Assembly (NCBI GenBank): GCA_015060685.1
Contig: SUXZ01000001.1
Span: 1-64,000, forward strand
From: Mediterranea massiliensis
GTDB taxonomy: Bacteria; Bacteroidota; Bacteroidia; Bacteroidales; Bacteroidaceae
Direction of reading: 5' to 3'
Length of the DNA stretch: 64,000 nucleotides
The notes under the pieces are model-generated. The model did not search any database and had not been told where the DNA came from. It saw nothing but the letters and a program-made list of their open reading frames with translations. The position numbers and the translations under genes are program-made. This document shows, in pieces, positions 1 to 24,273 of this stretch. The stretch's first letter is position 1. Every line of letters begins with the position of its first letter.

Positions 1-1666
1 TGGTGAGCACGGGATGTGGCAGACGCACCATCTTGCAGTGACTTTCGTCAGGTGTAAGAATATTCATACCCACGGCTCCGATGTATTCGGTAAGCGACAT
101 GACAAGTTCTTCGCGGATGGGGTCGATGGCTGGATTCGTTACTTGTGCAAATTGTTGGCGGAAATAGTTGAACAGCAGTTGCGGACGTTCGTTCAGCACA
201 GCCAATGGTGTGTCATTACCCATGGAAGCAACTGGTTCGGCGCCATTTACAGCCATGGGCATAAGAATACGTTCCACATCCTCACGCGTGTATCCGAAGA
301 CTTTCAGCATGGTGTTATAGGCCGATATGCCATTCTCCACCTTTCGCCCACTTTTCAGGGTATCAAGTTCAATTCGGTTGGCAGCCAGCCATTGTCGGTA
401 AGGCTTGGCTGAAGCCAATTGTTCCTTCAACTCTGCATCGTAATAGATTCTCCCTTCTTGAGTATCTACCAACAGAATCTTTCCCGGTTGCAAACGTCCT
501 TTCTCCTTTATTTCCGAAGGCTCGAAATCCATCACACCCACTTCGCTGGCTACAACCATCATATCCCCTTGCGTAATGAGATAACGGGCGGGACGAAGAC
601 CGTTACGGTCAAGCATACCACCAGCATAGCGACCATCGCTGAATAGAAGTGCCGCTGGCCCATCCCACGGTTCCATCAAAATAGAATGATACTCGTAGAA
701 AGCTTTCAGTTCGTCGCTGATTGGGTTCTTGTCGTTAAACGATTCGGGAACCAACATACTCATGGCATGGGGCAGACTTAAACCTGACATGACCAGAAAT
801 TCCAATACATTGTCGAGAGAAGCACTGTCGCTCATATCCGGTTGTATAATGTGACCAAGCTGTTTGATGTCCGACAAAATAGGAGTGGCAAGTACACTTT
901 CGCGAGCTTCCATCCATCCTCGATTACCACGAATGGTGTTAATTTCGCCATTGTGTGCCAACAGACGGAAAGGTTGAGCCAGACTCCAAGTAGGAAATGT
1001 GTTGGTGCTAAAACGCGAATGTACCAAAGCCAGTCCACTTGTAAAGTATGGATGCGTCAGATCGGTGAAGTATTCACGTACCTGCATGGAAGTAAGCATT
1101 CCTTTATATATAATGTTTCGACTGGAAAGAGACACAATATAGAAATCTTTATGATGTATTCGTTTCTCTATCTTCTTGCGGATGACATAGAGTGTACATT
1201 CCAATTGCGAGTTGTCCGTATCTCCCGTAATAAAAACCTGTTTGATATCAGGTTCGGTACTCAAAGCATCTTTTCCCAGACAACTAGAATTGACTGGCAC
1301 ATTACGCAAATGCATCAGACTGAGTCCTTCACGCTCAATTTCTTCTATCATGATGCTCAAGATATCTTCCTGTTCCTTTTTACCTTTAGGAAGAAAAACC
1401 AACCCTGTACCATATTTTCCTTTTTCAGGTACAGGAATACCTTGTAACAAGATAAATTCGTGAGGAATCTGTAACATAATTCCAGCTCCGTCTCCCGTTT
1501 TGTTGTCAGCCCCTTCAGCACCACGATGGCGCATATTTTCCAGAACTTTCAAAGCCGAGTCCACTAATTGGTGCGACTTGTTACCGTGAATGTTCACGAC
1601 CATCCCCACACCACATGCATCATGCTCATTGGCAGAGTCGTATAATCCATTTCTTTTTCTTTCCAT
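1..1666 (-). CDS. gltB: Glutamate synthase (GOGAT) large subunit, N-terminal part
   Basis: Large subunit of glutamate synthase, which moves the amide nitrogen of glutamine to 2-oxoglutarate. The ATG at 1666 opens a frame that stays open to base 1, giving 555 residues; the family is about 1,500 residues, so the rest lies outside the window. The N-terminus has the class II glutaminase signature ending EHDACGVGMV, with the expected processed nucleophile at Cys18, followed by HRGAEGADNKTGDGAG. The last visible residues (LTPDESHCKMVRLPHPVLT) match the end of the glutaminase region and start of the central domain. A good promoter lies upstream (1698-1727). The adjacent amidotransferase operon on the other strand makes this locus a hub of glutamine nitrogen use. 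Confidence 0.95.
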   Translation of the reverse strand, partial: MERKRNGLYDSANEHDACGVGMVVNIHGNKSHQLVDSALKVLENMRHRGAEGADNKTGDGAGIMLQIPHEFILLQGIPVPEKGKYGTGLVFLPKGKKEQEDILSIMIEEIEREGLSLMHLRNVPVNSSCLGKDALSTEPDIKQVFITGDTDNSQLECTLYVIRKKIEKRIHHKDFYIVSLSSRNIIYKGMLTSMQVREYFTDLTHPYFTSGLALVHSRFSTNTFPTWSLAQPFRLLAHNGEINTIRGNRGWMEARESVLATPILSDIKQLGHIIQPDMSDSASLDNVLEFLVMSGLSLPHAMSMLVPESFNDKNPISDELKAFYEYHSILMEPWDGPAALLFSDGRYAGGMLDRNGLRPARYLITQGDMMVVASEVGVMDFEPSEIKEKGRLQPGKILLVDTQEGRIYYDAELKEQLASAKPYRQWLAANRIELDTLKSGRKVENGISAYNTMLKVFGYTREDVERILMPMAVNGAEPVASMGNDTPLAVLNERPQLLFNYFRQQFAQVTNPAIDPIREELVMSLTEYIGAVGMNILTPDESHCKMVRLPHPVLT

Positions 1667-1697
1667 AATGCTTTTCCTTTGTAAAACAATAGTGATG

Positions 1698-1727
1698 CAA
1701 AGGTACGACAATCAACTATCAACCAAA
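1698..1727 (-). promoter_or_regulatory. Predicted promoter of gltB
   Basis: On the minus strand a TTTG (1724-1727), an 18-base spacer and TACCTTTG (1698-1705) fit the Bacteroidetes -33/-7 consensus. It sits about 32 bases before the gltB start codon. Confidence 0.6.
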
Positions 1728-1826
1728 TTGAAAGCATAGCAAAAAGAAAGAAGAAACTAATCCCAAATTTCAAATTGAAAGAAAAACCATAAAACAATTT
1801 GCAAAATGAAAGCAAAAGTAGCCATT

Positions 1827-3053
1827 CTAAAGCCAATCTTTTAGTTGCATCACAGCTTTTTCACAATCAGAACGGCTGGCAAAAGCACTAAGACGCACAT
1901 AGCCTTCGCCACTGGGACCGAAAGCAATACCAGGTGTGCAAACCACATGAGCACCATAAAGCATCATGCGGAAATATTCCCATGCACTGTGTTGATGAGG
2001 GATACGAATCCATAAATAAGGTACATGCTCGCCACCGTAAAGACGAATTCCCGTAGTAGAAAGTTCACGGCGCATCATCATTACATTCTTCATGTAATAG
2101 TTGATGGCATTGCATACCTCTACTTTACCCTCGGGTGTATAGATGGCTGCCGCCGCACACTGGGTGACGTAAGATACACCATTAAATCTGATGCGCTGAC
2201 GGTAATTCCATAGTGAATTCATAGAAATGCTTCGACCATCCAGTGTCTGCACCTGTAGTTCGTGAGGGATGACAGTATAACCACAACGAAGACCGGTAAA
2301 ACCTGCTGTACGTGAGAAACTGCGCAGTTCTATGGCTACTTTCTTGGCTCCGCGTATTTCATAAATGGAATGCGGTATTCCAGGCGACTGAATGTATGCT
2401 TCATAAGTGGCATCGAAAAGAATAAGAGAGTTGTTTTTCAGTGCATAGTCCACCCATTTCTTCAAGCTTGATTTACTGAAAGCCATGCCTGTGGGATTGT
2501 TGGGCGAACAGAGATAAACGACATCAACAGGACGATCAGGCGGCTGAGGGACAAAACCGTTTGACTCCACACATTCCAGATAGTTGACATTGCTCCAATG
2601 CCCTCCACGGAAGACACCAGCCCGACCAGAGACCACGTTACTCTCCACATAGATAGGATAAATGGGGTCTGCCACACCTACAGCATTATCCGAGCCCAAA
2701 ATCTCACCGATATTGCCAATCTCGCTCTTGATGCCATCGTTGACGAATATTTCTTCGGGGGTGAGGTGAACACCTCTAGGGTTAAAGTCGTTCTTGATAA
2801 TGGCTTCACGCAGAAACCCATAGCCTTGTTCCGGACCATAGCCATGGAATGTTTCAGTATGCGCCATTTCATCTACAGCTTGCCGCATACTCTCCGCCAC
2901 ATGAGTTCCCAACGAATGAATTACATCATTGACGCTCAAATCGATAAGATTGTTGGATGGACGAATCACCTTGAATTTCTCCACTTCTCCTCGGATGCTC
3001 GCAAACACATTTTCCTGCGGCAATTCCAGAAAATTTTCGTTCACCAATGCCAT
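1827..3053 (-). CDS. DapL-like aminotransferase lacking the PLP lysine
   Basis: Homologue of LL-diaminopimelate aminotransferase (DapL), a fold-type I PLP enzyme of lysine and peptidoglycan-DAP synthesis. Starting at ATG 3053 rather than an upstream TTG at 3059, it has 408 residues, normal for the family. Recognisable blocks are HGYGPEQGYGFLREAI (70-85), NDGIKSEIGNIGEI (105-118), DPIYPIYV, SPNNPTG (183-189), FDATYEAY (213-220) and FGPSGEGYVRLSAF. The Schiff-base motif, normally SFSKxAGFTG, reads SFSRTAGFTG here: residue 248 is Arg (codon CGT, 2310-2312). The substrate loop usually written GIGDVTRPL is also altered, to SVNDVIHSL. The frame is intact, so this is not an obvious pseudogene. It may be a pseudoenzyme paralogue, with a catalytic DapL encoded elsewhere. 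It lies between gltB and the divergent amidotransferase operon. Confidence 0.85.
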   Translation of the reverse strand: MALVNENFLELPQENVFASIRGEVEKFKVIRPSNNLIDLSVNDVIHSLGTHVAESMRQAVDEMAHTETFHGYGPEQGYGFLREAIIKNDFNPRGVHLTPEEIFVNDGIKSEIGNIGEILGSDNAVGVADPIYPIYVESNVVSGRAGVFRGGHWSNVNYLECVESNGFVPQPPDRPVDVVYLCSPNNPTGMAFSKSSLKKWVDYALKNNSLILFDATYEAYIQSPGIPHSIYEIRGAKKVAIELRSFSRTAGFTGLRCGYTVIPHELQVQTLDGRSISMNSLWNYRQRIRFNGVSYVTQCAAAAIYTPEGKVEVCNAINYYMKNVMMMRRELSTTGIRLYGGEHVPYLWIRIPHQHSAWEYFRMMLYGAHVVCTPGIAFGPSGEGYVRLSAFASRSDCEKAVMQLKDWL

Positions 3054-3085
3054 ATTCAATCTTTCTTACAGCGTTTACAATGCTG

Positions 3086-3093
3086 CAAAATTA
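3086..3093 (-). promoter_or_regulatory. Candidate -7 box for the DapL-like gene
   Basis: TAATTTTG on the minus strand, 33 bases before the ATG, matches TAnnTTTG. No convincing -33 TTTG is seen at the usual spacing. Confidence 0.35.
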
Positions 3094-3294
3094 CAGAATT
3101 CTTTGATTTTATAGCGTACAGTCGCTTTGTTTTGGTAAAGAAAAAATAATAAATCGTTTGCAATTGACATAAAACAAGACACAATACATTTTAATTTGAA
3201 TCTTTTTCATCTAGAATAATTAGACATTAGAACTTTGATTATTCCAATTCATTCAAACAAAGAGTATATCGCATCCCGTTTGTATCGTATGCCT

Positions 3295-3302
3295 TACCTT
3301 TG
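3295..3302 (+). promoter_or_regulatory. -7 box for the amidotransferase operon
   Basis: TACCTTTG, 28 bases before the ATG at 3330, matches the Bacteroidetes -7 consensus. The only nearby TTTG (3279-3282) is too close (12 bases), so the -33 element is weak or unusual. Confidence 0.5.
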
Positions 3303-3329
3303 CAGCAGAAAACAAACAAGCAAAAACAG

Positions 3330-5162
3330 ATGGAACCTCTGAAGCATGAGTGCGGTGTGGCAATGGTAAGGTTGCTGAAACCGTTGGATTATTATCAGGA
3401 AAAGTACGGAACCCGTATGTGGGGACTGAATAAAATGTATCTGCTTATGGAGAAGCAGCACAACCGCGGTCAGGAAGGTGCCGGCCTTGCGTGTGTGAAA
3501 CTGTACACAAAGCCCGGTGAGGAATATATGTTTCGTGAACGGGCAACAGGTACAGGAGCCATTACCGAAATCTTTCAAAACATAAGCGGCCATAGTGAAG
3601 AGTTTGCAGCAGAACTCTATATGGGACACCTACGCTATTCTACAACGGGCAAAAGCGGGTTGACCTATATTCATCCTTTTTTGCGACGTAATAATTGGCG
3701 GGTGAAAAACCTAGCAATTTGTGGTAATTTCAATCTGACAAACGTAGATGAGGTTTTTGCAGGCATTACAGCCGAAGGGCAACATCCACGTCGGTATGCC
3801 GATACTTATATTCTTCTGGAACAATTGGGACATCGGTTGGACCGTGAGGTGGAACATCTGTACCATCAATGCAAGGAAGAAGGATTGGAAGGACTCGGTA
3901 TCACTCGTTCCATCGAGGAACGTATCGATTTGACGGAAGTACTGAAGACTACAAGCCGTACTTGGGACGGTGGTTACGTGATATGCGGAGTGACCGGTAG
4001 TGGAGAGAGTTTTGCGGTGCGTGATCCTTGGGGGATTCGTACCGCTTTTTGGTATAAGAACGACGAGGTACTGGTTCTTGCCAGCGAGCGTCCTGTGATA
4101 CAGACGGTTATTGATGTGCCTTGGGAAGAGGTACATGAGTTGCTGCCGGGACAGGCACTATTGGCAAAGCGGAACGGGGAAGTGCGCTTGGCGGAAATCA
4201 ATCGTCCGAAAGCTTGCTCCGCCTGCTCCTTCGAACGTATCTACTTCAGTCGGGGTAGTGACAAAGACATTTATCGGGAACGGAAAATGTTGGGTAAGCA
4301 GTTGGTACCACAAATTTTGAAGGCAGTGGACTATGAGGTGGGTCATACTGTATTTTCGTTTATTCCTAACACGGCGGAAGTGGCTTTCTATGGAATGTTA
4401 GAAGGGTTGGACGAATACTTGAATGAACGAAAGGTGAAACTCATCGAGGCATTGGGACACAAGCCGGAGCATGCGGAACTGGAACGCATTCTCTCCATGC
4501 GTATCCGTAGCGAGAAAGTGGCCCTCAAGGACATCAAGCTGCGCACATTCATTGCCGAAGGAAACAGTCGTAACGACTTGGCTGCTCATGTGTATGATAT
4601 CACGTATGGCAGTGTACAGCCAGGAATTGACAATTTGGTGGTTATCGACGACAGCATCGTGCGGGGAACTACACTCAGGCAAAGCATCATCCGCATACTC
4701 GACCGTCTGCGACCCAAGAAGATGGTCATCGTTTCTTCTTCGCCTCAAGTGCGTTATCCCGATTATTATGGTATCGATATGTCCAGTTTGGAACAGTTCA
4801 TTGCTTTCAAAGCTGCTGTCAGTTTATTGAAGGAGCGACAGATGAATGATGTGATAAGATGTGCCTATCGGAAAGCTAAACTGCAAGAAGAGCACCCAGG
4901 TGGCCGGATAAAAAATTATGTAAAGGAACTCTATGCTCCCTTTTCCGACGAGGAGATCGCAGAGCGAATAGCCGTATTGCTGACTCCTGAGAACATTCAT
5001 GCCAAAGTACAGATTGTCTATCAGGATTTGGAGGGATTACATAAGGCTTGTCCGCAGCATCGGGGAGATTGGTATTTCAGCGGTGATTATCCTACGGAAG
5101 GAGGATTGCGTCTGCTGAACAAAGCATTCATCGAGTTCATTGAAAAGAGATATCAATTCTAA
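3330..5162 (+). CDS. PurF-like amidophosphoribosyltransferase, long variant
   Basis: First gene of the operon; resembles glutamine phosphoribosylpyrophosphate amidotransferase (first step of purine synthesis). The ATG at 3330 (610 residues) is preferred to a TTG at 3300 because it places the class II nucleophile Cys8 in KHECGVAMV near the N-terminus. A glutaminase domain (with NRGQEGAGL) is followed by a phosphoribosyltransferase-like domain carrying the PRPP loop VVIDDSIVRGTT at about 437-448. It is over 100 residues longer than ordinary PurF. The usual VPDSG-type block of the PRPP site is not recognisable; the aligned stretch reads FIPNTAEV. It may therefore be a specialised paralogue. carA begins 11 bases after its stop. 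Confidence 0.8.
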   Translation: MEPLKHECGVAMVRLLKPLDYYQEKYGTRMWGLNKMYLLMEKQHNRGQEGAGLACVKLYTKPGEEYMFRERATGTGAITEIFQNISGHSEEFAAELYMGHLRYSTTGKSGLTYIHPFLRRNNWRVKNLAICGNFNLTNVDEVFAGITAEGQHPRRYADTYILLEQLGHRLDREVEHLYHQCKEEGLEGLGITRSIEERIDLTEVLKTTSRTWDGGYVICGVTGSGESFAVRDPWGIRTAFWYKNDEVLVLASERPVIQTVIDVPWEEVHELLPGQALLAKRNGEVRLAEINRPKACSACSFERIYFSRGSDKDIYRERKMLGKQLVPQILKAVDYEVGHTVFSFIPNTAEVAFYGMLEGLDEYLNERKVKLIEALGHKPEHAELERILSMRIRSEKVALKDIKLRTFIAEGNSRNDLAAHVYDITYGSVQPGIDNLVVIDDSIVRGTTLRQSIIRILDRLRPKKMVIVSSSPQVRYPDYYGIDMSSLEQFIAFKAAVSLLKERQMNDVIRCAYRKAKLQEEHPGGRIKNYVKELYAPFSDEEIAERIAVLLTPENIHAKVQIVYQDLEGLHKACPQHRGDWYFSGDYPTEGGLRLLNKAFIEFIEKRYQF

Positions 5163-5173
5163 TTAGAATATAT

Positions 5174-6259
5174 ATGAAAAAAGCAACGCTGATATTGGAA
5201 GATGGAAGTTGTTTCGAGGGCGAGTCTTTCGGTTACGAAAAACCTGTAGTGGGTGAAGTGGTATTCAATACAGCCATGATGGGTTATCCCGAAAGTTTGA
5301 CCGACCCTTCGTATGCAGGGCAACTGATGGTACTGACCTATCCGTTGGTAGGTAACTATGGAGTGCCGCCTTTCTCCATGGAAAAAAATGGGATTCCCGT
5401 CTATATGGAGAGCGGACGAATTCATGCGGAAGCACTCATCGTGAGCGATTACAGCGAAACCTTCAGCCATTGGAATGCCAATGAAAGTTTGCGTAATTGG
5501 TTGAAGCGCGAGCAAGTACCTGGATTGACTGGTATCGATACACGCCGATTAACAAAAGTACTAAGAGAACATGGAGTGATGATGGGGAAAATAGTATTCA
5601 GTAACATAGACGATTTTTCTAGTAAGTATCCTGATTATCCCCATGTGAACTATGTGGACCAAGTGAGTTGCAAAGAGGTGATTCGATACAATGAAGGAGC
5701 CGGTAAGAAAGTGGTCCTGATAGACTGTGGCGTGAAGGCAAACATTCTTCGCTTGTTGTTAAAGCGGGATGTAGAAGTCATCCGTGTACCATGGAATTAT
5801 GACTTTCTTACGTTGGAGTATGATGGAATCTTCATTTCTAACGGACCGGGCGATCCTGACACATGTGAGGTTGCGGTAAGGAATATCCGCCGTGCCATGC
5901 AGGACGAGAATCTCCCTATCTTCGGTATTTGTATGGGTAATCAACTCCTTGGCAAGGCCGGTGGAGCTTCTGTATATAAACTGAAATACGGACATCGTAG
6001 TCATAACCAACCGGTGAGGATGGTGGGAACAAACCGTTGCTTCATCACCAGTCAAAACCATGGCTATGCTGTAGATAGTAATACGTTGGGCAACGAGTGG
6101 ATACCTTGGTTTGTGAATATGAATGACGGTTCTAACGAAGGAATCCGTCATCGGACGAATCCGTGGTTTTCGGTTCAGTTTCATCCCGAAGCGGCATCCG
6201 GACCAACGGATACGGCTTTCCTCTTCGATGAGTTTGTAGAATTGCTTAAAAACAGGTAA
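5174..6259 (+). CDS. carA: Carbamoyl-phosphate synthase small subunit
   Basis: Glutaminase subunit of carbamoyl-phosphate synthase, which feeds ammonia to CarB for pyrimidine and arginine synthesis. At 361 residues it has the family length. An N-terminal CPSase small-chain domain (NTAMMGYPESLTDPSYAGQ near 32-50) precedes a class I amidotransferase domain with the nucleophile Cys253 in GICMGNQLLG and the dyad His337/Glu339 in QFHPEAASGPTD. It is followed by carB after only four bases, implying translational coupling of the two subunits. Confidence 0.96.
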   Translation: MKKATLILEDGSCFEGESFGYEKPVVGEVVFNTAMMGYPESLTDPSYAGQLMVLTYPLVGNYGVPPFSMEKNGIPVYMESGRIHAEALIVSDYSETFSHWNANESLRNWLKREQVPGLTGIDTRRLTKVLREHGVMMGKIVFSNIDDFSSKYPDYPHVNYVDQVSCKEVIRYNEGAGKKVVLIDCGVKANILRLLLKRDVEVIRVPWNYDFLTLEYDGIFISNGPGDPDTCEVAVRNIRRAMQDENLPIFGICMGNQLLGKAGGASVYKLKYGHRSHNQPVRMVGTNRCFITSQNHGYAVDSNTLGNEWIPWFVNMNDGSNEGIRHRTNPWFSVQFHPEAASGPTDTAFLFDEFVELLKNR

Positions 6260-6263
6260 ATCA

Positions 6264-9200
6264 ATGAAGAACGAACAGATACAAAAGGTGTTGCTCTTGG
6301 GGTCAGGAGCATTGAAGATCGGCGAAGCGGGTGAGTTTGATTATTCTGGTTCGCAGGCACTGAAAGCATTGAAGGAAGAAGGTATTCGTACGGTACTCAT
6401 TAATCCAAACATTGCGACCGTGCAGACTTCGAAAGAAGTTGCCGATGAAATCTACTTCTTGCCAGTTACTCCTTATTTTGTAGAGAGAGTGATTGAGAAG
6501 GAACGTCCCGATGGAATACTCCTGGCTTTTGGTGGACAGACTGCATTGAACTGTGGCGTATCACTCTACCGGTCTGGAGTGTTTGAACGATATGGGGTAC
6601 AGGTATTAGGCACTCCCGTACAAGCTATTATGGATACGGAAGACCGTGAATTATTTGTCCATCGGCTGGACGAAATCGGTGTCAAGACTATCCGTAGTGA
6701 AGCCGTGGAAACGTTGGAAGATGCTCGGCGTGCAGCCAGGGAATTGGGTTATCCCGTCATTATCCGTGCTGCATACGCATTGGGCGGTCTCGGTTCCGGA
6801 TTTTGTGACAATGAAACAGAACTAGATGCCTTAGCCGAGAAAGCTTTTTCATTCTCACCGCAGGTATTGGTTGAAAAGAGTCTGAAAGGATGGAAGGAAA
6901 TAGAGTATGAGGTGGTACGGGACTGTTTTGACAACTGTATCACCGTATGCAATATGGAGAACTTTGACCCGTTGGGTATTCACACAGGCGAATCGATAGT
7001 CGTTGCTCCTTCTCAAACGCTCACTAACAACGAATACCACAAGCTTCGTGAATTGGCCATCCGCATCATTCGTCACATCGGTATCGTGGGCGAGTGCAAT
7101 GTACAATATGCACTCGATCCCGAAAGTGAAGATTATCGGGTTATCGAAGTGAATGCCCGATTGAGCCGTTCATCAGCATTGGCTAGTAAGGCTACGGGCT
7201 ATCCGTTGGCTTTCGTCGCCGCGAAACTGGCCTTGGGATACGGGTTGTTTGACTTGAAGAATGCGGTCACCAAGACTACTCCCGCCTTCTTTGAACCGGC
7301 ACTTGACTATGTGGTCTGCAAGATTCCCCGTTGGGACCTCGGTAAGTTCCAAGGAGTAGATAGGGTGTTGGGCAGTAGCATGAAGTCGGTGGGCGAAGTG
7401 ATGGCCATCGGTCGCACGTTTGAGGAAGCTATACAGAAAGGACTCCGTATGATTGGACAAGGGATGCATGGATTTGTGGAAAACAAGGAACTAGTGATAG
7501 CAGATGTAGACAAGGCACTTCGCGAACCAACCGACAAACGCATCTTCATCATCAGCAAAGCCATGCGTGCAGGATATACCGTGGACCAGCTCCATGAACT
7601 TACAAGGATAGACAAATGGTTCTTGCAGAAACTGCAAAACATCATGGATACGAGTATAGAATTGCATGATTGTGTATGGAGCAGTTCTTCTTTCGGCTCT
7701 CTCCTTCGTAAGGCCAAACGTCAAGGTTTCTCTGATTTCCAGATTGCTCGTGCCATCGGATTGGATACAGTGATGAGTGGCGAAAATGCTGCTCAGAAAA
7801 TCCGAGAATTACGTAAACGGGTGGGGATTCTTCCTGTAGTGAAACAGATTGATACGTTGGCGGCTGAATATCCGGCACAGACCAACTATCTTTACCTAAC
7901 CTATAATGGTACTGAAAGCGACGTGGATTATTTAGGCGATAAAAAATCGGTAGTGGTATTGGGAAGCGGTGCTTATCGAATTGGTTCCAGTGTTGAATTT
8001 GATTGGTGTGGCGTACAGGCGTTGAATACCATCCGCAAAGAAGGTTGGCGTAGTGTGATGATCAACTACAATCCGGAAACCGTCAGTACGGATTATGATA
8101 TTTGCGACCGTCTCTATTTTGACGAACTGACATTCGAACGTGTTTTAGATATTCTGGAATTGGAAAATCCGTATGGAGTTATTGTAAGTACAGGCGGTCA
8201 GATACCGAACAATCTGGCTCTCCGTCTCGATGCACAAGGTGTAAGTATTTTAGGGACATCAGCCGAAAGTATTGACAGGGCAGAAGATCGGGATAAATTC
8301 TCTGCGATGCTTGATACGATTGGAGTAGATCAACCGGAATGGCGTGCATTGACTTCGTTGGAAGACATTCAGGCATTCGTTCAGGAAGTTGGTTTCCCTG
8401 TACTGGTACGCCCATCGTATGTGTTGAGTGGTGCAGCCATGAATGTATGTTCCAACAACGAAGAACTGGAACGCTTTCTGGCATTGGCTGCTAATGTGTC
8501 GAAACAGCATCCGGTGGTGGTGAGCCGTTTTATCGAACATGCCAAAGAAGTAGAAATGGATGCCGTAGCCCGAGAAGGTGAAATCATAGCATACGCTATC
8601 AGTGAACACATCGAATATGCCGGTGTGCATAGCGGTGATGCCACCATTCAGTTCCCGCCACAGAAACTTTACGTGGAAACCATGCGACGTATCAAACGAA
8701 TCAGTCGCCGTATAGCCAAGGAGCTGAACATTTCCGGTCCGTTCAACATCCAGTTCCTTGCCCGCGACAATGATATCAAGGTGATAGAATGCAATTTGCG
8801 TGCTTCGCGGTCTTTCCCGTTTGTAAGCAAGGTACTTAAGCTGAATCTGATAGAATTGGCAACTCGGGTAATGCTGGGCATGGAGGTTCAAAAGCCGGAC
8901 AAGAGTTTGTTCGATTTGGATTATGTGGGTATCAAAGCCAGTCAGTTTTCTTTTAACCGTTTGCAGAATGCCGATCCCGTATTGGGGGTAGATATGGCAT
9001 CGACGGGTGAGGTGGGATGCCTGGGACAGGACACTTCTTGTGCCTTATTGAAAGCGATGCTATCGGTAGGTTATCGTATTCCGCAAAAAGGAATCCTGCT
9101 TAGCACTGGAGCCCCCAAGCAGAAAGTGGATATGCTGGAAGCTGCCCGTATGCTGCAACAGCAAGGATTCACCTTGTATGCCACTGGAGGTACTTCAGCT

Positions 9201-9488
9201 TTCCTTGAAGAAAACGGAGTGAAAAGTGTCCGTGTCTATTGGCCAAGCGAAGAAGGAACTCCACAAGCACTCGACTTGTTGCACCGGAAAGAGATAGACA
9301 TGGTGGTGAACATCCCCAAGAATCTATCTTCTAGTGAGTTGGATAATGGTTATAAGATTCGTCGTTCGTCCATCGATTTGAACATTCCACTGATAACCAA
9401 TGCCCGTTTAGCGAGTGCTTTTATTGGTGCGTTCTGCTCGATGAAAGTGGAAGATTTGGCTATCCAGTCCTGGAATGAATATCAATAG
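6264..9488 (+). CDS. carB: Carbamoyl-phosphate synthase large subunit
   Basis: Synthetase subunit (1,074 residues, standard length) that makes carbamoyl phosphate from bicarbonate, two ATP and ammonia channelled from CarA. Two homologous ATP-grasp halves are visible. The first starts [20 protein letters not shown] and contains [10 protein letters not shown]; the second starts [20 protein letters not shown] near residue 555 and contains [10 protein letters not shown]. The last roughly 130 residues form the MGS-like allosteric domain ([15 protein letters not shown]). It lies four bases after carA and 23 before guaA in the same operon. Confidence 0.97.
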
Positions 9489-9511
9489 TAATTAATTGTA
9501 ATATCAGGTAT

Positions 9512-12675
<3,164 letters not shown>

Positions 12676-12689
12676 AAAGTAGTCAATTT

Positions 12690-14534
12690 ATGTGTGGTAT
12701 CGTTGGATATATAGGTAAGCGAGAAGCTTATCCTATTCTTATTAAGGGCTTGAAAAGGCTTGAATACCGGGGCTATGACAGTGCGGGAGTCGCAATGATT
12801 AACGCTGATGGTGAATTAAACGTGTACAAGACCAAAGGAAAAGTACACAACTTGGAGGAATTTGTGGCAGAGAAAGATGTCAGTGGAAATATAGGTATTG
12901 CCCATACTCGATGGGCTACTCACGGAGAACCTTGTCAGGCCAATGCCCATCCTCATTATTCGACTTCGGGCAACTTAGCCTTGATACATAATGGAATCAT
13001 TGAGAACTATGCTGATTTGAAGGATAAATTGAAACTCAAGGGATATACATTTAGAAGTGAAACGGATACAGAAGTATTGGTGCAGTTAATTGACTACTTG
13101 CATAATGGTAGTCATTTACCTTTACTCTTGGCTGTAGAGACGGCTCTACGTTCAGTCATAGGGGCATACGCCATTGCAGTTATAGACAAAACAAATCCGC
13201 ATCAAATAATCGCAGCACGCAAAAGTAGTCCATTAGTGGTGGGTATTGGCGACAACGAATTCTTCCTTGCTTCGGATGCAACACCCATTGTTGAATATAC
13301 AGATAAAGTCGTTTATCTAAACGATGAGGAGATTGCCATTATTAATTTGGACAACGGACTTGAAATCGTCAACCTGCACAATACTAAAGTCACTCCTGAA
13401 ATTAAGACTATTAATTTGGAACTAAACCGTTTGGAAAAAGGAGGGTATCCACATTTCATGCTAAAAGAAATATATGAACAGCCCAATTGTTTGAGTGACT
13501 GTATGTGTGGCCGGGTGAGTAGCGAAAGCAACAGCATTAAGCTTTCAGCCATTATTGACAATAAAGAAAGACTTCTGTCGGCACGCCGGTTTGTCATATT
13601 GGCTTGCGGCACATCGTGGCACGCAGGATTAATAGGGAAGCAACTAATAGAAAACTTCTGCAGGATACCTGTAGAGGTGGAATATGCCTCTGAGTTCAGA
13701 TACCGCAATCCTGTTATTGACGAAAAAGATGTGGTTATAGCCATATCCCAATCGGGTGAAACTGCCGACACGCTGGCTGCTGTAGAATTGGCCAAACAAA
13801 AAGGTGCATTCATCTATGGTATATGCAATGCTGTAGGTTCTTCTATTCCACGTGCTACGGATACAGGTTCTTACATACATGTAGGTCCTGAAATAGGCGT
13901 GGCATCAACGAAAGCTTTTACAGGGCAAGTAACCGTATTGGTGATGCTTGCTCTATCATTGGGTAGAGAGAAAAACGTTATTGACGAGAGCACATATAGT
14001 CATTTGGTGAAAGAACTTACGCTGGTTCCAGAGAAAATGAAAGGGTTACTCTCTATAAACAATCATATAGCTCACTTGGCACGTATTTTTACTTATGCCC
14101 ATAACTTCCTCTACCTCGGCCGAGGTTTCAACTACCCTGTAGCTCTGGAAGGGGCTTTAAAACTTAAGGAAATTTCCTATATCCATGCGGAGGGCTATCC
14201 TGCCGCAGAGATGAAACATGGACCCATTGCTCTGATTGACGAAGAGATGCCAGTTGTGGTGATTGCAACACAAAATGCAATGTATGACAAGATTTTGAGT
14301 AATATTCAAGAAATCAAAGCGCGTAAGGGCAAAGTCATAGCCATCGTTACAGAGGGTGACGAAGTAATAAGCCATTTAGCGGATGATGTAATAGAACTAC
14401 CATATATTGCAGAATTTTTGGAACCTTTGATAACAACAATACCACTACAACTCCTGGCGTATCATGTAGCAGTATGCAAAGGAAAGGATGTTGATCAGCC
14501 TCGTAATTTAGCAAAATCAGTAACTGTAGAATGA
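12690..14534 (+). CDS. glmS: Glutamine-fructose-6-phosphate aminotransferase (isomerising)
   Basis: Makes glucosamine-6-phosphate, the entry to UDP-GlcNAc for peptidoglycan and lipid A. The 614-residue protein starts MCGIVGYIG, with the class II nucleophile Cys2 exposed after Met removal. The glutaminase domain has THGEPCQANAHPH, and two SIS domains bind the sugar phosphate (CGTSWHAGLIGKQ and SQSGETADTLAA; then LGRGFNYPVALEGALKLKE). The end DQPRNLAKSVTVE is the canonical GlmS C-terminus. It is the last gene of the operon, and no strong terminator hairpin is obvious just after it. Confidence 0.97.
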   Translation: MCGIVGYIGKREAYPILIKGLKRLEYRGYDSAGVAMINADGELNVYKTKGKVHNLEEFVAEKDVSGNIGIAHTRWATHGEPCQANAHPHYSTSGNLALIHNGIIENYADLKDKLKLKGYTFRSETDTEVLVQLIDYLHNGSHLPLLLAVETALRSVIGAYAIAVIDKTNPHQIIAARKSSPLVVGIGDNEFFLASDATPIVEYTDKVVYLNDEEIAIINLDNGLEIVNLHNTKVTPEIKTINLELNRLEKGGYPHFMLKEIYEQPNCLSDCMCGRVSSESNSIKLSAIIDNKERLLSARRFVILACGTSWHAGLIGKQLIENFCRIPVEVEYASEFRYRNPVIDEKDVVIAISQSGETADTLAAVELAKQKGAFIYGICNAVGSSIPRATDTGSYIHVGPEIGVASTKAFTGQVTVLVMLALSLGREKNVIDESTYSHLVKELTLVPEKMKGLLSINNHIAHLARIFTYAHNFLYLGRGFNYPVALEGALKLKEISYIHAEGYPAAEMKHGPIALIDEEMPVVVIATQNAMYDKILSNIQEIKARKGKVIAIVTEGDEVISHLADDVIELPYIAEFLEPLITTIPLQLLAYHVAVCKGKDVDQPRNLAKSVTVE

Positions 14535-14900
14535 TTAGTCAGTAGGTGAAATTTATATAGGTAAAAGTTAGAAGATTGTTTGTAGAATGAACATTTGAGT
14601 TTTATTCTCGGGAGGGGTGAATAGTTTTGTAACATACATTTTTAATGTGGACATAGACTATCGCCCTCTTTGTTTTATATGTAAATAAGTCGTGATGAAA
14701 AAGCTGATTCAAGGCGTAGTTTACAAGTCAAAGGGTGTAATCTACAATTGAGAAGTTCTTCAATTACTTGTTGTAAATTTGCACTTGCTTGTTGAATTCG
14801 CATTGTGTAAATAAAGGTTAAATTTGTTAAATTTGCACTTCTGGAATCAATATTAAATCCAAATGTATTTATTTCTACCGTTTAGCTTTTAAATTATTGA
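14535..14900. other. AT-rich gap with promoter-like boxes
   Basis: No gene is supported. TAAATTTG boxes occur at 14774-14781, 14819-14826 and 14828-14835, each matching the -7 consensus. They could be promoters left over from the gene whose 3' remnant follows. No clear terminator for glmS was found. Confidence 0.4.
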
Positions 14901-15101
14901 GTACTAACGGATAAGAAATACTCATTATGTACTTCTTTAGTTAAGTGCTATTGTTATGCTACTATACCTCCGGTTCTTAATGAAAGTTCATTTGGTAATA
15001 TTGCACAAGAGGCAATTCTATATGTTCCAATAGGGTGTAAATCTGCATACGAAGCAAGTGATTGGACAAATTATTTTGAAACTATTGTGGAAATGAATTA
15101 A
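14901..15101 (+). pseudogene. 3' remnant of a BspA-like leucine-rich repeat surface protein
   Basis: Codons from 14901 to the stop at 15099-15101 read without interruption and contain CYCYATIPPVL, AILYVPIGCKSAYEASDW and end FETIVEMN. This is the typical C-terminal end of BspA-type (LRR_5) surface proteins of Bacteroidales, where repeats close with a TPP turn and a VPxGxxxAYxxxxxW block. There is no start codon and the frame is closed by TGA at 14898-14900, so only the tail of a formerly much longer gene survives. Confidence 0.7.
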
Positions 15102-21789: not shown

Positions 21790-23106
21790 ATGAAAGTTTT
21801 AAAGTTTGGAGGTACATCTGTTGGCTCACCTCAACGAATGAAGGAGGTTGCAAAGCTGATTACAGATGGTGAAAAGAAGATTGTAGTTTTGTCTGCTATG
21901 TCGGGCACTACCAATACGTTGGTCGAGATTTCGGATTATCTTTATAAGAAGAATCCCGATGGTGCAAACGAAGTGATTAATCGTTTGGAACGTAAGTATC
22001 AGCAACACATCAACGAGTTGTATGCTACCGAAGAGTATCGTCAGAAAGGTATGGAGTTGCTCAAGGTGCGTTTCGAGTTGTTGCGTTCGTATACAAAAGA
22101 TTTGTTTACCTTGTTCGAAGAACGTATTGTCTTGGCTCAAGGCGAATTGCTTTCAACAACCATGGTAAACTACTATTTACAAGAACAAGGATACAAGTCG
22201 GCATTGCTTCCGGCACTTGATTTCATGCGTACAGATAAGAACTCCGAGCCCGATTTGGCCTACATCAAGGAGCGTCTTGCCCAACAATTGGAGGCCAACC
22301 CGGATGCTGATATCTATATCACACAAGGTTTTATCTGTCGCAATGCGTATGGCGAAGTGGATAACCTTCAACGAGGCGGAAGCGATTATAGTGCCTCTTT
22401 GATTGGTGCAGCCGTAAAGGCCGATGAAATACAAATCTGGACAGACATTGATGGTATGCATAACAACGATCCGCGTGTAGTGGACAAAACATCACCAGTT
22501 CGTCATCTGCATTTTGAAGAGGCTGCTGAGTTGGCCTATTTCGGTGCCAAGATTCTTCACCCAACTTGTATTCAGCCGGCTAAGTATGCCAATATTCCTG
22601 TTCGTTTGTTGAACACAATGGACCCCAAAGCAGAAGGTACCATGATTTCCAATGAAACAGAGAAAGGAAAAATCAAGGCCGTTGCCGCTAAAGAGAATAT
22701 TACCGCTATCAAGATTAAGTCGAGCCGAATGTTGTTGGCTCACGGTTTTTTGCGTAAGGTATTCGAAATCTTCGAGAAGTATCAGACTTCTATCGATATG
22801 ATTTGTACATCTGAGGTGGGTGTGTCTGTATCAATAGACAACGTGAAGCACTTGAATGAAATCTTGGACGAATTGCGTAAGTATGGTACGGTTACGGTAG
22901 ATCATAACATGTGTATCGTTTGTGTGGTTGGCGATTTGGAATGGGAGAATGTAGGTTTCGAAGCTAAGGCACTCGATGCAATGCGCGACATACCTGTGCG
23001 TATGATTTCGTTTGGTGGTAGCAACTACAATATCTCTTTCCTGATTCGTGAATGTGATAAGAAGGCTGCTTTGCAATCACTTAGCGATCAGTTGTTTAAT
23101 AATTAA
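21790..23106 (+). CDS. lysC: Aspartokinase
   Basis: Phosphorylates aspartate, the first step to lysine, threonine and methionine. The 438-residue protein is monofunctional. It starts MKVLKFGGTSVGSPQRM (amino-acid kinase domain, to about 290), contains RGGSDYSASLIGAA, and ends with tandem ACT domains that would bind feedback effectors (TSEVGVSVSIDN). It is followed six bases later by lysA, so the two ends of the lysine pathway are cotranscribed. Confidence 0.95.
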   Translation: MKVLKFGGTSVGSPQRMKEVAKLITDGEKKIVVLSAMSGTTNTLVEISDYLYKKNPDGANEVINRLERKYQQHINELYATEEYRQKGMELLKVRFELLRSYTKDLFTLFEERIVLAQGELLSTTMVNYYLQEQGYKSALLPALDFMRTDKNSEPDLAYIKERLAQQLEANPDADIYITQGFICRNAYGEVDNLQRGGSDYSASLIGAAVKADEIQIWTDIDGMHNNDPRVVDKTSPVRHLHFEEAAELAYFGAKILHPTCIQPAKYANIPVRLLNTMDPKAEGTMISNETEKGKIKAVAAKENITAIKIKSSRMLLAHGFLRKVFEIFEKYQTSIDMICTSEVGVSVSIDNVKHLNEILDELRKYGTVTVDHNMCIVCVVGDLEWENVGFEAKALDAMRDIPVRMISFGGSNYNISFLIRECDKKAALQSLSDQLFNN

Positions 23107-23112
23107 TACCGT

Positions 23113-24273
23113 ATGAATACAATATTCCCTATAGAGGAACTACGTAAGCTGCCCACTCCATTCTATTACTACGACGTGGATTTGTTGCGCCAGACGCTTT
23201 CGGCTATAGCGAAAGAGGCTTCGAAGTATGAGAAATTTGAAGTTCACTATGCTATCAAAGCCAATGCAAATCCGAAGTTGTTGAAGGTGATTCGTACAAG
23301 TGGATTGGGTGCCGATTGCGTAAGTGGCGGGGAAGTTCAAGCCTCTTTGGATGCAGGTTTCCCTAACGACAAGATTGTATTTGCCGGTGTGGGAAAAGCC
23401 GATTGGGAGATTAATCTGGGTTTGGATAATGATATCTTCTGTTTCAATGTAGAGTCATTGGCCGAGTTAGAGGTAATCAACGAATTGGCCAGCTTGAAAA
23501 ACAAGGTGGCTAATGTTGCGTTCCGCATCAATCCGAATGTGGGTGCTCATACGCATGCGAACATTACTACCGGACTTGCTGAAAATAAATTCGGTATCAG
23601 TATGGAGGATATGATTCCAATTATCCAAAAGGCATCTGCGATGAGCAATGTGAAGTTTATAGGATTGCATTTCCATATTGGTTCGCAAATTTTGGAAATG
23701 GACGACTTTGTGGCTTTATGTCATCGCGTTAACGAGTTGCAAGACATACTGGATGCTAACCAGATTTATGTGGAGAATATAAATGTTGGAGGCGGATTGG
23801 GTATTGATTACGACGCACCTAGCGAGAATCCCATTCCTGATTTTGCAGATTATTTTGCCGTTTATGCCAAGCATCTGAAGTTACGCCCACATCAGACGTT
23901 GCATTTCGAACTTGGCCGTGCGGTAGTAGGACAATGCGGCTCGTTAATCTCCAAGGTACTCTATGTTAAGCAAGGCACCAACAAACAATTTGCTATCCTC
24001 GATGCCGGCATGACCGATTTGATTCGTCCGGCATTGTATCAGGCTCATCATCAGATAGATAATTTGACATCGGAAGAACCTGCTGAAACCTACGATGTAG
24101 TAGGCCCGATATGCGAATCGTCGGATGTATTTGGTAAAGATGTTCGTTTGAATAAAGCCAAGCGGGGCGATTTGTTTGCTCTTCGTTCGGCCGGTGCTTA
24201 TGGCGAAATCATGGCATCGGGCTATAATTGTAGAGCACTCCCAAAAGGATATACTTCTGACGAATTAGCTTAA
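23113..24273 (+). CDS. lysA: Diaminopimelate decarboxylase
   Basis: Decarboxylates meso-DAP to lysine, a PLP fold-type III enzyme of 386 residues. The Schiff-base lysine is in VHYAIKANANPK (near residue 48). The phosphate-binding GGG is in NVGGGLGIDY, and the second-subunit motif CESSDVFGKD supplies the active-site Cys. It ends the operon that began at purU; a strong terminator follows. The DapL-like gene upstream in the window belongs to the same pathway on paper. Confidence 0.95.
   Translation: MNTIFPIEELRKLPTPFYYYDVDLLRQTLSAIAKEASKYEKFEVHYAIKANANPKLLKVIRTSGLGADCVSGGEVQASLDAGFPNDKIVFAGVGKADWEINLGLDNDIFCFNVESLAELEVINELASLKNKVANVAFRINPNVGAHTHANITTGLAENKFGISMEDMIPIIQKASAMSNVKFIGLHFHIGSQILEMDDFVALCHRVNELQDILDANQIYVENINVGGGLGIDYDAPSENPIPDFADYFAVYAKHLKLRPHQTLHFELGRAVVGQCGSLISKVLYVKQGTNKQFAILDAGMTDLIRPALYQAHHQIDNLTSEEPAETYDVVGPICESSDVFGKDVRLNKAKRGDLFALRSAGAYGEIMASGYNCRALPKGYTSDELA

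Follow-up and report, generated by a model that had tools for sequence, protein, structure and literature searches.

The window analysed here, a stretch of 64,000 nucleotides from Mediterranea massiliensis that starts at base 1 of its contig (C22), carries near that end an open reading frame for a protein related to LL-diaminopimelate aminotransferase (DapL). The frame is intact and begins with an ATG at 3053; a TTG six bases further upstream is a possible alternative start. The product scores 512.6 bits against the NCBIfam DapL model TIGR03542 (cut-off 364.7), which makes it a member of the DapL sequence family; its predicted structure (pLDDT 91.2) matches DapL structures over the full length. 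The defining feature of the DapL enzyme, the lysine that forms the Schiff base with pyridoxal phosphate (PLP), is absent: positions 2310-2312 are ACG on the plus strand, so the codon of the gene is CGT, for Arg248 within RSFSRTAGFTG. A preliminary description of this DNA had reported an intact DapL paralogue with arginine at the Schiff-base position, a loop in which SVNDVIHSL replaces GIGDVTRPL at residues 40-48, and a location between GOGAT (gltB) and the PurF-like and carAB genes, and these statements are borne out (Table 1).

The gltB gene follows on the same strand after a gap of 116 bp, and the PurF-like neighbour is, judged by its profile scores, a divergent amidotransferase paralogue. 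Upstream of the DapL-like gene, TAATTTTG matches TAnnTTTG, which we take to be a promoter element of Bacteroidota. The match is found in four of five aligned relatives (the window included) within an upstream region that has otherwise diverged, and it fits a promoter of the gene's own. Neither sigma-70-like promoters nor terminators were found in 1600-3400, and no Rfam family reached its gathering score in window positions 1-12000.

Table 1. The DapL-like gene, its altered and retained sites, and its neighbours, in window positions
Feature	Position	Strand	Basis
gltB, glutamate synthase large subunit, cut by contig end	2-1711	-	GATase_2, Glu_syn_central
Lysine-less DapL paralogue, 408 aa	1827-3053	-	open frame, TIGR03542 score, structure model
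Arg387, carboxylate-binding (R390 of V. spinosum DapL), kept	1893-1895	-	26/26 clade rows
Ile288-Arg289, Thr-Lys in true DapL	2187-2192	-	loop mapped by alignment
Codon CGT, Arg248, replacing PLP-binding Lys (K251 of V. spinosum DapL)	2310-2312	-	sequence, alignment
Asp214-Ala-Thr216-Tyr217: cofactor residues Asp214 and Tyr217 kept, Thr216 replaces Ala	2403-2414	-	alignment
Substrate loop, residues 40-48 (SVNDVIHSL); Gly42 replaced by Asn (2928-2930)	2910-2936	-	alignment
Promoter-like element TAATTTTG	3086-3093	-	TAnnTTTG match
Divergent PurF-like gene	3333-5162	+	TIGR01134, 132 bits (cut-off 350); no Pfam cut-off passed

Spread, phylogeny and selection

An alignment with relatives, as proposed in the preliminary description, reveals SFSR to be a clade-wide variant. 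Among 80 loci retrieved from the genome collection, residue 248 is Lys in 67, Arg in 10 and Met in 3, and Arg is present in each of the nine loci closest to the window protein (65-94% identity). The best 120 of 7,996 scored database proteins have Arg (104), His (2) or Lys (14), so that 106 of the 120 lack the lysine. A survey of 399 genomes of the family gave a match at E <= 1e-120 in 247, and 30 of these matches were read at the site: six have Arg (63-100% identity) and 24 have Lys (56-60% identity). The nearest Lys-bearing relatives of the window protein are approximately 60% identical. In the main tree, built from 84 of 139 deduplicated rows after ten Lys-less and many Lys rows had been thinned out, a single clade unites 26 Arg and His rows at support 100/100; it has a long stem (0.52) and contains no Lys row. 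The deep branching of a second tree of 67 rows is not resolved. The two His248 members (P0094 and P0097) also have Arg256 replaced by His and have lost Tyr72.

Lysine is missing from other family members as well. A Met-bearing group from Phocaeicola-like genomes (7 rows, 100/100) stands apart from the Arg group in the trees, and so does the copy of P. faecicola (L111/L138), which has Arg at the site and a different loop (EKEDV in L111). The approximately unbiased (AU) test rejects neither a single origin of all Lys-less rows (p 0.495) nor a common origin of the Arg/His and Met rows (p 0.467); thus one loss of lysine and several both fit the test, although the trees separate the Arg and Met groups. 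In the genus of P. faecicola (g37, as judged from identical match positions), several genomes have two Lys-bearing copies (L202, L206, L208, L211, L217), one of which lies directly upstream of glnN; it is possible that these glnN-linked copies are precursors of the Met group.

A recent duplication of the genome's own DapL is rejected where it could be tested among clade-bearing genomes, since the Lys copies of L042, L198 and L216 group separately (99/100); L124 joins this group in the 67-row tree. The 718-aa frame of L096/L131 was considered as a fusion and set aside, as its extra N-terminal stretch is antisense to a YitT-type gene. Two Lys-bearing family members are on long branches: L194, a second copy in genome G059 with the loop NLGNSDVSLPLS, and L196/L125, with the loop DLGAGDVSQPLC, from an Arg-gene genome (G062) that has no dapF. 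The latter is perhaps an enzyme losing constraint.

Eight clade genes gave 28 pairs, 15 of them with finite dS. Their dN/dS, a soft measure here because dS exceeds 1 for most pairs and the Nei-Gojobori method is crude, lies between 0.034 and 0.072 in 14 of the 15 and reaches 0.151 in the remaining one, the pair of lowest dS. For comparison, 14 pairs of Lys-bearing DapL genes (86-95% identity, from 60 randomly drawn rows) have a median of 0.020. Constraint on the clade genes is thus strong, yet weaker than on the Lys enzyme. In 13 distinct clade genes the arginine codon is CGC six times, CGT five times, and CGA and CGG once each (in Lys genes the lysine codon is AAA 62 times and AAG 77 times), and the use of all four CGN codons indicates synonymous turnover with the residue held.

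These data bear on the view that the protein is still an LL-DAP aminotransferase, normal or residual, with Arg in the place of Lys, or else that the sequence is erroneous or the copy decaying. The overall DapL family score and a dN/dS above that of the Lys-DapL pairs speak for it, and in aspartate aminotransferase, arginine mutants still carry out partial reactions weakly. However, an error at 2310-2312, which the preliminary description had named as a refutation, is contradicted by the occurrence of Arg in many genomes and in four CGN codons, and decay by the open frames and a dN/dS far below 1; LL-DAP would also be a dead end without dapF, and the alternative enzyme Ddh is present (see below). 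We regard this view as very improbable. A catalytic residue lost in a conserved frame is what a pseudoenzyme under selection presents.

The remodelled pocket

The pocket sites compared were the active-site residues of V. spinosum DapL, as given in PMC7113581, together with neighbouring sites, all mapped by alignment. Residue 248 is Arg in 24 and His in 2 of the 26 clade rows. Lys109, Asn186, Asp214, Tyr217 and Arg387 are kept in all 26, followed by Glu75 and Ser247 (25 each), Tyr132 (24), Arg256 (23), Asn291 (19) and Tyr72 (14); in the subclade of 12 rows to which the window protein belongs, Asn291 is kept throughout and Tyr72 everywhere except in the two His rows. The window protein itself keeps Tyr72, Glu75, Lys109, Tyr132, Asn186, Asn291 and Arg387, and has Val for Ile41 and Asn for Gly42.

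Several other sites have changed together across the clade. Residue 42 is Asn in 25/26 clade rows and Gly in 49/50 Lys rows; Ala108 has become Ile or Val in 26/26 (Ile in the window protein), where the 50 Lys rows have Ala (43), Ser (6) or Val (1). Asp111 and Asp137 are both Glu in 26/26, Ala216 is Ser or Thr in 26/26, Thr288 is Ile in 25/26 and Lys289 is Arg in 26/26. Most of these sites are invariant or almost so in the 50 Lys rows, archaeal rows included, and in the tree set residue 216 separates the two kinds completely (Ser/Thr in 34/34 Lys-less rows, Ala in 50/50 Lys rows). Residue 108 lies in what is presumably the phosphate-binding turn, judging by fold-type I enzymes in general, and its change to Ile or Val could weaken PLP binding. 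Loop C (T291-S297 of V. spinosum DapL) lines the active site of the partner subunit, according to PMC7113581; by the alignment, Ile288-Arg289 of the window protein fall in this loop. In the Met group, Ile288 (7/7) and Arg289 (6/7) recur, Glu75 is lost and Arg387 is Gln (7/7), which leaves it with a broken substrate site beside retained cofactor residues. Average conservation within the Arg clade is 0.833 for the twelve named pocket sites (248 left aside) and 0.871 for 124 other conserved sites.

Two statements of the preliminary description need correction in this light. That only the Schiff-base site and the loop had changed does not hold, given Ala108Ile, Asp111Glu, Asp137Glu, Thr288Ile and Lys289Arg in all or nearly all clade rows; nor is the motif FDATYEAY, listed there among the kept cofactor sites, constant in the family, as residue 216 differs between Lys and Lys-less rows. 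Its broader proposal, that selection acts on some function different from ordinary Schiff-base transamination, gains support, as the variant is clade-wide, old, under purifying selection and set in a remodelled pocket.

What that role would be can be read from the pocket in more than one way. The main rival to the reading preferred below is an enzyme of altered chemistry, akin to the novel PLP-site chemistry that the preliminary description offered as an option, which would catalyse with pyridoxamine phosphate (PMP) or PLP and use Arg248 (His in two proteins) or Arg289 of the other subunit as the base, on the model of ColD, the lysine-less sugar dehydratase with His as base. The restriction of residue 248 to Arg or His (24 + 2 of 26), the retention of cofactor and carboxylate residues, and the joint remodelling of both pocket sides (Asn42 and Ile288-Arg289) agree with it. 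We consider it rather unlikely nevertheless: we came across no established enzyme with this fold that relies on Arg, there is no conserved partner enzyme beyond the inherited neighbours, and the further changes at Arg256 and Tyr72 in the two His proteins make loosening likelier than a new active site. Next to it stands a cofactor-free scaffold or moonlighting protein, with the dimer kept for protein contact and the pocket for folding only. Pocket sites that are no better kept than other conserved sites, the change of Ala108 to Ile or Val, and the loss of Tyr72 and Asn291 in part of the clade would suit such a protein, which remains unlikely in view of Asp214, Tyr217, Asn186, Lys109 and Arg387 being kept in every row of the clade.

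Lysine pathway genes and gene neighbourhood

The assembly of this genome (G000) is 98.84% complete in 31 contigs. In a genome profile search the window gene is its only TIGR03542 match above the cut-off (the next scores 139.9 bits), and hence the second, Lys-bearing DapL which the preliminary description suggested looking for was not found above the cut-off. A genome search gave no match to dapF. The meso-DAP dehydrogenase Ddh is present (440.9 bits, cut-off 180.6), as is dapB. An aspartate kinase gene and lysA adjoin within the window at 21790-24273(+), lysA being 23113-24273. A single step catalysed by Ddh yields meso-DAP without the need for DapF, according to PMC4176475, whose reference list includes a study with dual pathways in B. 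fragilis in its title. The presence of Ddh makes DapL dispensable, and therefore the earlier argument that absence of any other DapL would tell against a pseudoenzyme does not apply.

On another contig of the same genome (C25), locus L002 has at 1444-2622 an aminotransferase nearest the TIGR03540 class of LL-DAP aminotransferases. Its scores fall short of two family cut-offs, with 406.8 of the required 593.25 bits for TIGR03540 and 414.1 of 507 for NF006756. It may be an unrecognised LL-DAP aminotransferase; dapF is absent from this genome regardless. Matches that score like it occur in many genomes of the same genus, some of them without DapL.

Ten genomes of the collection carry the Arg gene. 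In six of them (G000, G063, G064, G067-G069) no further DapL match reaches E <= 1e-60, and five of the six (G000, G063, G064, G068, G069) lack dapF and have Ddh. By identical match positions, G064 is the same as G209 (91% complete) and G068 the same as G251 (89%); for G063 and G069, a missing piece of assembly is a possible cause of the absences. G067 has neither a Ddh match nor a Lys copy. Its apparent combination of Arg gene and dapF was set aside, as the dapF contig (L223, C8) is probably foreign to the bin: that contig bears glnN and a different carB (65% identity to that of the window), and the Arg-gene contig has a carB and a glnN of its own. The other four (G061, G062, G065, G066) also have a Lys DapL, three of them with dapF. 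More widely, dapF is present in 16/16 chosen Lys-DapL genomes and absent from 13/14 genomes without a DapL match at 1e-120; among the six Arg-gene genomes of this comparison it is found in three, one of which (G216) is cut by the contig end.

This distribution bears most directly on the suggestion, made in the preliminary description, that the protein is a regulator or heteromer partner of a true DapL, for which the lysine-less LCB1 subunit of serine palmitoyltransferase provides the pattern. A Lys-bearing second copy does accompany the gene in four of the ten genomes, L042 having both in one gene string, and Glu75 and Asn291, residues donated to the partner's site, are mostly kept. However, with no other DapL above the cut-off in G000 there is no resident DapL to serve as partner, dapF is missing as well, and G063, G064, G068 and G069 are alike; purifying selection on the gene persists. 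Retention of the Arg gene where the DapL route seems gone argues against the partner role, which is refuted as a general one if the gene losses are real, and which we hold to be the least probable of all the readings.

The neighbourhood was compared over 13 distinct clade loci, with duplicates merged. The PurF-like gene is divergently upstream in 11, and one more locus ends too close to the gene for this to be seen. Downstream on the same strand, glnN follows directly in seven, gltB directly in three (the window included) and dapF-dapL-glnN in one; of the remaining loci, L043/L197 has an insertion before a short gltB match, and the gene of L039 is elsewhere, beside a glmS-like gene. In L197 (G066) the insertion, at 8384-15025 between the Arg gene and the gltB match, holds AAA-type, DUF262-like, methylase-like and integrase-like genes, named by eye. 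All four loci with a Met or P. faecicola copy have glnN after it. The order dapF-dapL-glnN occurs in 33/51 Lys loci, so that inheritance accounts for at least part of the linkage to nitrogen genes. G000 has lost the linked glnN and has a single match elsewhere, 58% identical. Prevotella ruminicola 23 has a cluster of dapF, glnN-2 and gltBD with a strong ammonium response, the direction of which is given inconsistently in the accessible part of PMC5552732.

A lysine-less DapL among known systems

We favour the reading, to which we give a probability of somewhat under one half (about 0.46), that the window protein belongs to an old Bacteroidaceae clade of lysine-less DapL which would bind PLP or PMP and a dicarboxylic amino acid without turnover. 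It probably has a job other than ordinary DapL catalysis, and perhaps holds vitamin B6 and an amino acid instead of transferring nitrogen. The dimer would still bind PLP (or PMP) non-covalently. Without the lysine neither transimination nor proton transfer would take place, and PLP and the amino acid, most likely glutamate, would stay as a stable external aldimine, like those of plant DapL lysine mutants; the protein would then act in ligand binding or sensing and not as a catalyst. It is from the retention of the cofactor cage, of Arg387 and mostly of Glu75, with loss of the lysine of turnover, that we infer a binding protein.

The place beside glnN or gltB is a weak hint at an output related to glutamate or nitrogen status. 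Against such a link are the inherited neighbourhood, the loss of the linked glnN from G000 and the position of the L039 gene away from these neighbours. Against the binding reading as a whole, the change of Ala108 could weaken the hold on PLP, conservation of the pocket sites falls slightly short of that of other conserved sites, Tyr72 and Asn291 are incompletely kept, and dN/dS exceeds that of the Lys-DapL pairs. The more specific proposal of a natural "trapped external aldimine" receptor in Bacteroidaceae, serving as a glutamate or nitrogen-status sensor (or carrying a new PMP chemistry), retained whether or not its ancestral lysine pathway is, and matched by a parallel or sister case in Phocaeicola, is possible but doubtful.

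No description of a lysine-less DapL was found in the literature searched (an open-access library). Lysine-less relatives of PLP enzymes such as ColD and LCB1 are already known, and the DapL form would join them as a further case. Proteins of the Arg kind score above the equivalog cut-off, and public records name at least one of them (P0062, with Arg at the site) LL-diaminopimelate aminotransferase; such naming would credit genomes like G000 with a route to lysine and cell wall that they seem to be without. DapL has been proposed as a narrow-spectrum drug target, as stated in PMC4176475. If the ligand-binding reading is true, nature would have produced an equivalent of the lysine mutants with which PLP intermediates are trapped, and the protein would clearly exemplify the conversion of an aminotransferase into a binding protein.

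Among known fold type I proteins, ColD and LCB1 both lack the Schiff-base lysine. ColD has His in its place and works by PMP chemistry, whereas the window protein has Arg, and His occurs only in P0094 and P0097 of the 106 lysine-less proteins among the best 120. LCB1 has an obligate catalytic partner; G000 offers no second match above the cut-off that could be a Lys-bearing one. ALD1 of A. thaliana (4fl0), unlike the window protein, keeps the catalytic lysine. DapL itself (TIGR03542; V. spinosum 6oxm, A. thaliana 2z20) is resembled in score, full-length fold, cofactor cage and Arg387, and differs in having the Schiff-base lysine, in Gly42, Ala108, Asp111, Ala216 and Thr288-Lys289, and in that the genome of the window protein has no dapF. 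The Met group (L096, L107, L114, P0121-P0127) shares the loss of lysine, Ser/Thr216, Ile288, mostly Arg289 and a glnN directly downstream, but has Met248, a GKEDV loop, Gln for Arg387 and no Glu75, and its genomes also have a Lys DapL and dapF. The K270N and K270Q forms of A. thaliana DapL are likewise DapL without the lysine, although there Asn or Gln was engineered into an otherwise unchanged pocket, and in the window protein a natural Arg comes with several further changes. Their structures with DAP or glutamate (PDB 3ei8, 3ei9, 3eia), external aldimines by their titles, indicate that a DapL without its lysine can still collect and hold PLP and an amino acid.
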